From the NCBI GenBank assembly GCA_021813405.1, contig JAKAKS010000001.1, positions 1-34,912 of the forward strand: a DNA stretch of 34,912 nt. Direction: 5' to 3'. The notes beneath the pieces are model-generated. The model searched no databases. It was not told the origin of the DNA and saw nothing but the letters and a program-made list of their open reading frames with translations. The translations under genes were made by a program, and so were the position numbers. This document shows, piece by piece, positions 17,727-20,612 of this stretch. The DNA is from Nitrospirota bacterium. Its GTDB lineage: Bacteria; Nitrospirota; Thermodesulfovibrionia; Thermodesulfovibrionales; JdFR-88. Each line of letters opens with the position of its first letter. Within the stretch, counting starts at the first letter, position 1.

Positions 17727-18503
17727 TCAATAGCCCGGGGGGAAAGGCGCATAGCTTCCCTCGTCCCATAGCCTGTTACTCTCTTGCGGGCCTTCGCATA
17801 TGAGGATGCCTTTTCTGCAAAGGGTCTCCCGCCACTCATATTTTATGAGCGTCTTATTGAAGGCAACGCGCCCGGGATCGAACGCAACCGTAACAACCGG
17901 CGAATAGCGCCCTTTACCAAAACCTGTGCCGGCCGCTTCATCCCTAGCCATCATCTTGTTGCTCGCGGCAGCGCCTGGCGCCATCCGCGAAGACCTTTTT
18001 TCAAGCCAGCTGTCCCTCTCTTTTTCCCTGAAAGCGGCAACCGCTATAACACCCATGGCCGAAGAGTCGGAAAAGGTCCTGACAGAATAGGAATCACCCG
18101 GGTCTGTAAAGTAAAACTGGTGCACCGTGCTGTTGTCTGTCCGCCAGCCGTCGATCCTGACGCTGCCGTATGGACCAATGATATACATGCGCTCGTTCCA
18201 TCCCAGATCAGACATTTTCCCGTCGATAACATTCCGGCCGTCCACGGCCACCACGATGCCTATCCTTTCAGAGGAATTATTCCGCACTACTATCCCGTAG
18301 TTCCGCCCCTTGCCCGCCACCAGGTATTTCTTTACGACATACGTGCCGCCAGACTCAAACGCCTTGTGCGGTATCCCGTATTGGACTTCTCCGTTGTCCG
18401 AGACAACCGCAACCTCCACGCTGTTGCCCGGCTGGGCCTGCGCCTTTACTGCCATTACCATCATAAGCCCCAATACCAGCGCCATGAACGCCCTTTGCTT
18501 CAT
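17727..18503 (-). CDS. Secreted protein of unknown function, probable ECF-sigma target
   Basis: A 258-residue protein with a clear signal peptide (cleavage near AQAQ, residue 24) and a beta-rich middle, YGIVVRNNSSERIGIVVAVDG, RMYIIGPYGSVRIDGWRT and MGVIAVAAF. The pattern 'RNN...VDG.NVIDG...Y...PYG..RIDG.RT' recurs in uncharacterised periplasmic proteins of myxobacteria-like and other Gram-negative genomes. No enzymatic motif is seen. The C-terminal third holds two Cys in ETLCRKGILIC. A GGAAGGAGG ribosome site and an ECF-type promoter matching that of the divergent sigma gene precede it, so it is probably part of that regulon and acts in the envelope. Confidence 0.8.
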   Translation of the reverse strand: MKQRAFMALVLGLMMVMAVKAQAQPGNSVEVAVVSDNGEVQYGIPHKAFESGGTYVVKKYLVAGKGRNYGIVVRNNSSERIGIVVAVDGRNVIDGKMSDLGWNERMYIIGPYGSVRIDGWRTDNSTVHQFYFTDPGDSYSVRTFSDSSAMGVIAVAAFREKERDSWLEKRSSRMAPGAAASNKMMARDEAAGTGFGKGRYSPVVTVAFDPGRVAFNKTLIKYEWRETLCRKGILICEGPQESNRLWDEGSYAPFPPGY

Positions 18504-18544
18504 CTTTTTTCCTCCTTCCGTTTGTTTGTTCCTGCTTCAGTTAA

Positions 18545-18573
18545 TAAGACAGGACCGGGATGAAAAAAGTTCC
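18545..18573 (-). promoter_or_regulatory. ECF (RpoE-type) promoter of the secreted-protein gene
   Basis: On the minus strand GGAACTT (18573-18567), a 16-base spacer and GTCTTA (18550-18545). This is nearly the RpoE consensus GGAACTT/GTCTAA, with the same spacing as the box before the sigma gene. The start point would lie near 18538, giving a 35-base leader with a good ribosome site. Confidence 0.65.
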
Positions 18574-18648
18574 CGGGGCTTATCCGGCGTCCCCGTAAAC
18601 CTAAATTAAGCTCTGCGCCCTGCCAACCACCCTGAAGCGCCTTGCCCA

Positions 18649-18678
18649 TTGAAAGAACACCGAATGCTGGGCTACAAT
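18649..18678 (+). promoter_or_regulatory. Possible sigma70 promoter upstream of the ECF sigma gene
   Basis: TTGAAA (18649-18654), an 18-base spacer and TACAAT (18673-18678). It could supply basal expression with a leader of about 70 bases. Confidence 0.4.
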
Positions 18679-18720
18679 CACACCATGCCTTGGGGTTCAA
18701 GCGGTATCGATCGGGAAGCG

Positions 18721-18749
18721 GGAACTTTTCCGGCCAGACATTTGTCTAA
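18721..18749 (+). promoter_or_regulatory. ECF (RpoE-type) autoregulatory promoter
   Basis: GGAACTT (18721-18727), a 16-base spacer and GTCTAA (18744-18749), a full match to both RpoE-type hexamers. The predicted start point falls at or within two bases of the ATG at 18754, so the transcript would be leaderless. No ribosome site is present, which fits. Confidence 0.65.
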
Positions 18750-18753
18750 ATAA

Positions 18754-19359
18754 ATGACACAAAGCGGAAACAGACAAGAAAGCGATGAGGAGCTTGTAGC
18801 GCAAACCAAGAAGGGCGGCCTTACGGCCTTCGAGAACCTGGTGGGGCGGCATCAGAAGAAGATGCTGAATATTGCTTTTCGAATGTGCGGCAATTACGAG
18901 GACGCATGCGAAATCGTCCAGGATGCGTTTCTTGCCGCATACAAGGGCATCGGCAGGTTTGAAGAGCGGTCTGGTTTTTCGACCTGGCTCTATACCATTA
19001 CCCTTAACCAGACCAGAAACCACATGAAGAAGGCTTCTACCTTATCAGCCAGACGGGAACATTCTCTGAATGAGCCGCTCCTGTCGGAAGACGGCTTTAT
19101 ACAGGCCGATATGGTTTCCAATAAACCGTCGGCGCTTGAGGTCCTTGAGAAACGTGACCTTCGTGAGATTATTCAGCAATGCGTCAGCGGACTGGACGAT
19201 GAGTTCCGGGAAGTGCTTGTGCTCAGAGACATTCAGGGCTTTGCCTACGCAGAGATAGCGGCAATGCTCCGGATAGCGGAAGGGACGGTCAAATCGCGTC
19301 TTTTCAGGGCGCGGGACTCGGTTAAAAACTGCCTGAAGAAGCTTCTTGATAGAATCTGA
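18754..19359 (+). CDS. ECF sigma factor, RpoE-like
   Basis: A 201-residue extracytoplasmic-function sigma factor. The sigma2 region spans about residues 27-95, with FEERSGFSTWLYTITLNQTRN for DNA melting and core binding. The sigma4 helix-turn-helix spans about 140-192, with LDDEFREVLVLRDIQGFAYAEIA and EGTVKSRLFRAR. Both are of the RpoE (ECF02-like) group. It directs RNA polymerase to envelope-stress-type promoters, and such a promoter stands directly before this gene and before the divergent secreted-protein gene. The anti-sigma factor gene follows 1 base later. Confidence 0.95.
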   Translation: MTQSGNRQESDEELVAQTKKGGLTAFENLVGRHQKKMLNIAFRMCGNYEDACEIVQDAFLAAYKGIGRFEERSGFSTWLYTITLNQTRNHMKKASTLSARREHSLNEPLLSEDGFIQADMVSNKPSALEVLEKRDLREIIQQCVSGLDDEFREVLVLRDIQGFAYAEIAAMLRIAEGTVKSRLFRARDSVKNCLKKLLDRI

Positions 19360-19360
19360 C

Positions 19361-20482
19361 ATGGAATGCGATAAGGCAAAAAAAGGCTTTTCCGGATTTC
19401 TTGAAAATACCCTTCCTCAGGAGGCAAGGGAGAAGATCATTACGCATCTTTCCTCGTGCAACGGCTGCCGTTATGAACTGAAAGAACTCGAAAAGACATT
19501 GAGTCTTCTAAATACTCTGGATGAGGTTGAACCTCCGGCCTGGCTGACCCGGAAGGTGATGGCAAAAATCCGGAAGGAGACGGCCCCTGAAAAAGGACTG
19601 TGGGAACGCTTCTTTGGCAGGGCCTCCTTTTCCCCCCCGGCTGCCGCCCTTGCCACGGTTGCAGTAGCTGTTATCGCATTTGTAGCCTTTAAGGGCATTT
19701 GGCCTGGAGCCGGCCGCATAATGATGCCACCTTCGTCCGCCACACCTGCCCATGCGCCCTCGCAGGAGCCAAAGCATGATGAATCAAAGACATTGCGGAA
19801 CAACAAAGATGCGCATTCACCCAAAAATGCAAGTGTTCCGTTGGCCGCAAACAAGGCGCGGGAAGATGTGCACCTTCGCTCAGAAGAAGCCGGAACTATA
19901 CAACCCCCACTGCCGGCAAAAAGTACATCTTCGGAGAAGATCATTGCGCCAACTGAAAATATGGCTGCGTCCACGGCCAACCAGCTATCCGGAGGGGCCT
20001 TGCCCAAAGCCAAAGCAATGATCCAAGCGCAGGATCAGGCGACCGTCCCCCCCTCCGTATTGGCGCCGCAAGAGATGGCAGCCCAGGCCGGCCCAGGACT
20101 TTCTTCTAAGCCTGGAGCGCTGCAAGACAAATCCTTCAAACGCAAGCCGGCAAGGAACGTTCCTGCCGCAACTAATGAAGAAGCGATGAAAGAAATGGGA
20201 GATCTGAGGCGGCAGGTAACCGGGCGGTATGAAAACGGAAGGCCAAAGGCGGTGGTTACCTATTCAATCATCTCGGGACAGGAGAAGAAACTGATGGTTG
20301 AAAGGTTTGATGAGTACGGGTTAAGGCACGGGCTGCAAGAGGCCTATGATCATAACGGGAAGGTTGCATTGGCGGTAGAGTACCGTCACGGCAAGGTCAT
20401 ATCCGTCAGAGAACTGACGGCTGAAGGAACTTACCGGAACGGTCCGGTATCTGAAAACTGGCCCTGGCTTAAATTACATTGA
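19361..20482 (+). CDS. Zinc-finger anti-sigma factor with periplasmic MORN-like C-terminus
   Basis: A 373-residue single-pass membrane protein. The N-terminal ZAS domain has C3, H29, C33 and C36 (HLSSCNGC). A membrane helix spans about 93-112. A long low-complexity linker rich in Pro, Ala, Lys and Ser follows (about 120-275). The C-terminal domain is YwqK/MORN_2-like, with GRYENGRPKAVVTY, DEYGLRHGLQEAYDHNGK and EGTYRNGPVSENW. It should hold the adjacent sigma factor inactive until a periplasmic signal releases it. I chose the ATG at 19361; the TTG at 19346 would overlap the sigma gene. MORN-like repeats on an anti-sigma factor are unusual. Confidence 0.88.
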   Translation: MECDKAKKGFSGFLENTLPQEAREKIITHLSSCNGCRYELKELEKTLSLLNTLDEVEPPAWLTRKVMAKIRKETAPEKGLWERFFGRASFSPPAAALATVAVAVIAFVAFKGIWPGAGRIMMPPSSATPAHAPSQEPKHDESKTLRNNKDAHSPKNASVPLAANKAREDVHLRSEEAGTIQPPLPAKSTSSEKIIAPTENMAASTANQLSGGALPKAKAMIQAQDQATVPPSVLAPQEMAAQAGPGLSSKPGALQDKSFKRKPARNVPAATNEEAMKEMGDLRRQVTGRYENGRPKAVVTYSIISGQEKKLMVERFDEYGLRHGLQEAYDHNGKVALAVEYRHGKVISVRELTAEGTYRNGPVSENWPWLKLH

Positions 20483-20540: not shown

Positions 20541-20612
20541 TGGGCGATGTAGGTTTCGAACCTACGACCTCTGCCGTGTGAAGGCAGCGCTCTCCCGCTG
20601 AGCTAATCGCCC
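20541..20612 (-). tRNA. tRNA-Val (anticodon CAC)
   Basis: A full cloverleaf on the minus strand: acceptor GGGCGAT/ATCGCCC, D arm GCTC/GAGC, anticodon arm CTGCC-TTCACAC-GGCAG with anticodon CAC, and T arm GTAGG-TTCGAAA-CCTAC. It is 72 bases with the discriminator A, and CCA is not encoded. It reads GTG codons. Confidence 0.96.

Follow-up and report, generated by a model that had tools for sequence, protein, structure and literature searches.

The window, by which we mean the whole stretch of 34,912 nucleotides of Nitrospirota DNA analysed here, holds a divergent locus. On the plus strand, a domain search identified a gene for an ECF sigma factor of 201 aa with regions sigma2 and sigma4 (18754..19359). 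It is followed by a gene for an anti-sigma factor of 373 aa (19361..20482), recognised by domain search and alignment, which starts 1 nt past the sigma stop codon. A tRNA-Val (CAC) gene lies beyond on the minus strand (20541-20612), convergent with the anti-sigma gene. Running the other way on the minus strand is the gene for a secreted protein of 258 aa (17727..18503), which is apparently monocistronic. The intergenic region carries two predicted promoters of the same type, one facing each way.

The sigma protein has the make-up of an ECF factor, with sigma2 and sigma4, no sigma3 and a length of about 200 aa. Its domains score 5e-17 (Sigma70_r2) and 9.7e-15 (Sigma70_r4_2), and it lies above the cut-off for the sigma70-ECF superfamily. 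By the equivalog cut-off of NCBIfam TIGR02939 it is not an RpoE orthologue (120.7 vs 236.15 bits). Its ATG at 18754 is the only plausible start, as an in-frame TAA stands directly upstream and no other plausible start precedes region 2 in the window. The anti-sigma protein is built of an N-terminal zinc anti-sigma domain/DUF2275 with the pattern C...HX3CX2C, one apparent membrane span and a variable outer part. The N-terminal pattern is that of the zinc anti-sigma (ZAS) proteins, and C3, H29, C33 and C36 (HX3CX2C) are invariant in 12 aligned sequences. Against the Pfam gathering scores the window protein lies above for DUF2275 (27.7 vs 24.6) and below for zf-HC2 (20.1 vs 22.2), the latter score being passed by the anti-sigma proteins of relatives. 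The outer domain, in the C-terminal third around MVERFDEYGLRHGLQEAYD, is shared with the anti-sigma proteins of four loci only (L011, L015, L076 and L077), and the anti-sigma genes of all four, like that of the window, adjoin a divergent secreted-protein gene; other anti-sigma proteins have unrelated C-termini. Sensing or binding of the secreted protein is a possible role for this outer domain.

The plus-strand promoter, before the sigma/anti-sigma operon, spans 18721..18749 and reads GGAACTTTTCCGGCCAGACATTTGTCTAA, with a -35 element GGAACTT at 18721-18727, a 16-nt spacer and a -10 element GTCTAA at 18744-18749. The minus-strand promoter, before the secreted-protein gene, spans 18545..18573 and reads GGAACTTTTTTCATCCCGGTCCTGTCTTA from 18573 to 18545, with GGAACTT at 18573-18567, again a 16-nt spacer, and GTCTTA at 18550-18545. 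By sequence match both boxes are thus of the sigma-E type (GGAACTT, a spacer of 15-17 nt and a GTCTAA-like -10), and the identical -35 heptamers and spacers are present where the sequence-only reading had placed them. That reading took the pair to define a small regulon in which the sigma factor activates its own gene and the secreted protein is a direct target, and it proposed a genome-wide scan for GGAACTT-N15-17-GTCTWA as a check. In the 2,906,763 bases of the genome (56 contigs) this pattern matches twice, and both matches are the boxes within 18545-18749, each before a gene. The boxes lie 147 bp apart in the window and from ~36 bp (L015) to ~290 bp (L011) apart in relatives, and we therefore regard them as independent promoters, not as one shared operator.

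Short motifs do arise by chance, the reversed control pattern matches 1+1 times in the whole genome, and the 128 matches found when two mismatches are allowed are fewer than those of the reversed control. A coincidental pair is nevertheless so improbable that it can be set aside: the chance expectation in the window is a mean of 0.01 in shuffled windows, none of 100 shuffled windows held two matches, the whole genome has just these two, and the position and orientation of the boxes are conserved in other genera. The relaxed counts also speak against more targets in this genome, with one- and two-mismatch sites both fewer than in the reversed control. Relaxed matching gave a third site, C24:21040, which lies 180 bp upstream of an aldehyde-dehydrogenase-like gene; it was rejected because it lacks the T before GTCT.

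The secreted-protein gene has the layout of an ordinary leadered gene. Between the end of the minus-strand box (18545) and its ATG (18503) there is a 41-nt gap, the predicted mRNA leader (18504..18544, minus strand), with a Shine-Dalgarno GGAGG at 18515-18511, 7 nt before the ATG. The protein has an apparent N-terminal signal peptide. No Pfam or NCBIfam family scored above threshold for it, and Pfam searches with its relatives gave sub-threshold DUF7918 alone. Its predicted structure consists mostly of strands and is of low confidence (mean pLDDT 63.7), and a PDB search with the model returned no convincing match (best E 0.026), so we assign it no function. The genes downstream of it differ among relatives and gave no functional clue. 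In a genome of the same genus (G001:C205:91-246; L016/L085) the last ~50 codons of the secreted-protein gene are kept at a contig edge, and the sigma region is absent from that assembly.

Conservation bears directly on the two regulatory claims. A perfect box lies 32-35 bp before the start codon of secreted-protein homologues at eight loci in other genera, GTCCAA stands 54-66 bp from the start codon at another two Nitrospirota loci, and a box with a spacer one base shorter is found at L080 (Nitrospirota) and at L081, which is filed as Deltaproteobacteria. Among Nitrospirota loci with intact 5' ends, every secreted-protein homologue is preceded by the box, the exceptions to its exact form being the two GTCCAA loci and the one with the shorter spacer. 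At loci where the divergent gene next to it encodes the sigma factor (e.g. L011, L015, L075, L076 and L077) both genes have a box, that of the sigma gene reading GAAAC instead of GGAAC at L076 and L077. Loss of the boxes in relatives, which the sequence-only reading had named as the outcome that would count against it, was not seen. Its prediction of a secreted direct target is strongly supported by the homologues in other genera, and its prediction of autoregulation is likewise strongly supported by the box before orthologous sigma genes and by its presence in all sigma-bearing genomes.

That last point comes from 176 genomes of one Nitrospirota order, 32 of which encode a close sigma homologue (E <= 1e-45). 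Using a strict form of the box, GGAACWWW-N14-TGTCTNA, we found it in every one of the 32 genomes that encode the sigma factor and in 20 of the remaining 144, and the Fisher p of about 1e-21 overstates the case, as related genomes are not independent, though the sites span many genera. Sigma-bearing genomes hold 75 strict sites vs 6 for the reversed control, and genomes without the sigma gene hold 24 vs 37; the latter sites are background, apart from those in a small number of genomes whose sigma factor is truncated or more divergent (examples are G142, G151 and G171). This tracking of the sigma gene by the strict box is our main evidence that the adjacent sigma factor reads it, and a box before the factor's own gene, conserved together with the factor, is the mark of an autoregulated ECF module and is present here.

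The boxes might instead be read by a different, cross-regulating ECF sigma factor of the cell, since many ECF groups share GGAAC/GTC promoters and sigma factor and box are paired here by sequence comparison. We consider this very unlikely given how the strict box follows the sigma gene over the 176 genomes, and given that genes for DUF4139 proteins carry the box only where the sigma gene is present (6/7 genomes with it vs 0/7 without; p = 0.0023). Reading by the adjacent sigma factor also agrees with its region 4. E. coli sigma-E, which reads GGAACTT, contacts the -35 element via R171, S172 and R176 (PMC3397946); with these residues placed on the GTVRSRIFR stretch of the alignment by our own assignment, S172 and R176 are identical in the window protein and R171 is replaced by Lys. 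K, S and R at these positions are consistent with recognition of GGAAC.

The regulon appears small. The genes that follow strict sites in sigma-bearing genomes are almost only those for the sigma factor, the secreted protein, DUF4139 proteins and VIT-vWA proteins. Homologues of the last two were sought in the window genome and are absent from it, which fits its count of two sites, so that the small autoregulated regulon of the sequence-only reading is well supported and in this genome comes to two transcripts. One genome (G067; loci L196-L200 and L170) has seven strict boxes, some before other secreted-looking proteins (e.g. L198, L199 and L200), and on this promoter pattern has an enlarged regulon. 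That the sigma module and its regulon exist as described is, to judge from the conserved promoters, highly probable.

The sequence-only reading overlooked that the plus-strand promoter lies too close to the sigma start codon for any leader to fit between them. Only the four nucleotides ATAA (18750..18753) separate the -10 hexamer from the ATG; the sigma gene has no Shine-Dalgarno sequence and none can fit in the gap. With its -10 element adjoining the start codon, the gene thus has the sequence features of a leaderless gene. The arrangement is conserved: in 30 boxed orthologous sigma loci the start codon lies 4 nt past the hexamer in 23 (21 ATG, 2 GTG) and 3 nt past it in a further four. Across these loci GGAAC and TGTCTxA are near-invariant and the information content at the four positions of the gap is 0.04-0.5 bit, so the length of the gap is conserved and its sequence is variable. 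The exceptions to the fixed gap are L145, L149 and L150. At L145 (G156:C26) ATA stands in place of ATG at the conserved 4-nt position, and L145 and L150 have an in-frame ATG overlapping the -10 box. Boxed target genes, in contrast, mostly have leaders of 30-41 nt with AGGAG, and this difference within one regulon argues for selection for a leaderless sigma mRNA. A phylum-wide search for the box-gap-ATG pattern was swamped by background and is left out of the evidence. On balance, we think it slightly more likely than not that the autoregulated sigma mRNA is leaderless.

Where exactly transcription starts matters for this proposal. In E. coli the annotated 5' ends of MicA and MicL lie 6 and 5 nt past the hexamer, and in a Thermoanaerobacter ECF promoter the -10 region lies at -11 to -6 (PMC3397946); this spacing places +1 within the sigma ATG, not certainly on its A. 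For ordinary promoters the position of the second -10 base is given as -14 to -8 relative to +1 (PMC3160421); if transcription began at the A of the sigma ATG, the second hexamer base here would be at -9, within that range. By analogy the sigma +1 could therefore fall on the ATG, perhaps on its T or G rather than its A. Upstream, a weak sigma-70-like site, TTGAAA-N18-TACAAT (10/12), lies at 18649-18678 on the plus strand, and transcripts from it would begin with an ATG (18685). This ATG opens a frame of 22 codons (18685-18753, plus strand), in frame with the sigma gene, whose TAA directly precedes the sigma ATG. The site is a possible basal promoter and could supply a leadered sigma mRNA as well.

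These observations allow a reading in which the regulon is as described, yet the self-activated transcript starts 1-2 nt inside the sigma ATG and is not leaderless in use. Most functional sigma factor would then be made from a leadered mRNA of a vegetative promoter further upstream, and the autoregulated promoter would chiefly serve expression of the anti-sigma factor or of a truncated product. Besides the E. coli 5' ends and the 10/12 site, a distant group of sigma paralogues (L175-L178, family f3; 30-33% identical) points this way: it has the same box with a GTG or ATG that abuts the hexamer (gap 0), a start codon that transcripts of this promoter would lack. We nonetheless think a start inside the codon rather unlikely. 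A start codon held 3-4 nt from the hexamer in 27/30 orthologues despite drift of the gap sequence needs a reason, a longer transcript would have no Shine-Dalgarno sequence, and no alternative in-frame start precedes region 2 in the window. Also, the three sigma-70-like sites found, vs a shuffle mean of 1.7, are within chance expectation. The leaderless, self-activated sigma mRNA remains our preferred reading.

In the ECF family, the anti-sigma factor holds its sigma factor at the membrane until an envelope signal releases it, and autoregulated modules are ordinary. By this family pattern, an envelope signal would free the sigma factor from the membrane-bound anti-sigma protein, and the freed factor would direct RNA polymerase to GGAAC-N18-GTCTNA promoters, one driving the sigma/anti-sigma operon and the other the divergent secreted-protein gene; in relatives the DUF4139 protein and/or the VIT-vWA protein would be added. 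The target mRNAs would be ordinary leadered mRNAs and the sigma transcript (hexamer-N4-ATG) leaderless. The close spacing of the sigma and anti-sigma genes suggests that their translation is coupled, and leaderless initiation on the sigma gene would therefore set the output of both proteins. We have good confidence in this explanation as a whole, that is, in a positively autoregulated ECF sigma/zinc anti-sigma module that controls very few genes and has a leaderless sigma mRNA. For the broader proposal that throughout the Nitrospirota order the self-activated sigma mRNA is leaderless, with its spacing under selection, and the targets leadered, we judge the chances to be about even. If true, translation would be initiated in two ways within one regulon, and a change in ribosome state would affect the positive loop differently from its outputs; leaderless translation would then count as a conserved part of how a stress-response feedback loop is designed, not as a set of scattered cases. 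The regulon, made up of sigma/anti-sigma, one secreted protein and the DUF4139 and VIT-vWA proteins, is also clearly delimited and open to testing, and it takes in proteins without a known function from bacteria that are mostly uncultured. The literature searched, with partial coverage, gave no earlier description of this regulon composition in Nitrospirota, nor of a spacing-locked, apparently leaderless auto-promoter.

Among known systems, E. coli sigma-E (RpoE)/RseA is alike in its -35 GGAACTT and a -10 of the GTCTAA type, and in having an autoregulated sigma factor, a co-transcribed membrane anti-sigma gene and secreted or envelope targets. It differs in that the window sigma factor is not an RpoE orthologue (120.7 vs 236 bits), the anti-sigma factor is of the zinc (HX3CX2C) type, the window genome has just two strict sites, and the sigma start codon adjoins the -10 box. 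ECF sigma/ZAS operons, including those with DUF2275, share the gene order, the short intergenic gap, the C...HX3CX2C N-terminal domain and the apparent single membrane span, whereas the outer domain varies by lineage. The sigma mRNA of the window probably has its first base at the start codon, which is an unusual arrangement. Leaderless genes whose -10 element adjoins the start codon are described in Deinococcus-Thermus (PMC12340547) and as TANNNT-led genes (PMC3160421), and likewise have the -10 at a short fixed distance before the ATG and no Shine-Dalgarno sequence; those are sigma-70 promoters, whereas here an ECF -35/-10 pair precedes the gene of its presumed reader. Actinobacteria provide ECF sigma genes with leaderless mRNAs, as proposed here, in sigE p1 of M. 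tuberculosis (PMC4921905) and sigJ of Streptomyces (PMC3160421). The sigE p1 promoter is WhiB7-associated (PMC4921905) and sigJ is read by another sigma factor (PMC3160421), so that, unlike the promoter proposed for the window, these leaderless promoters are not autoregulated.
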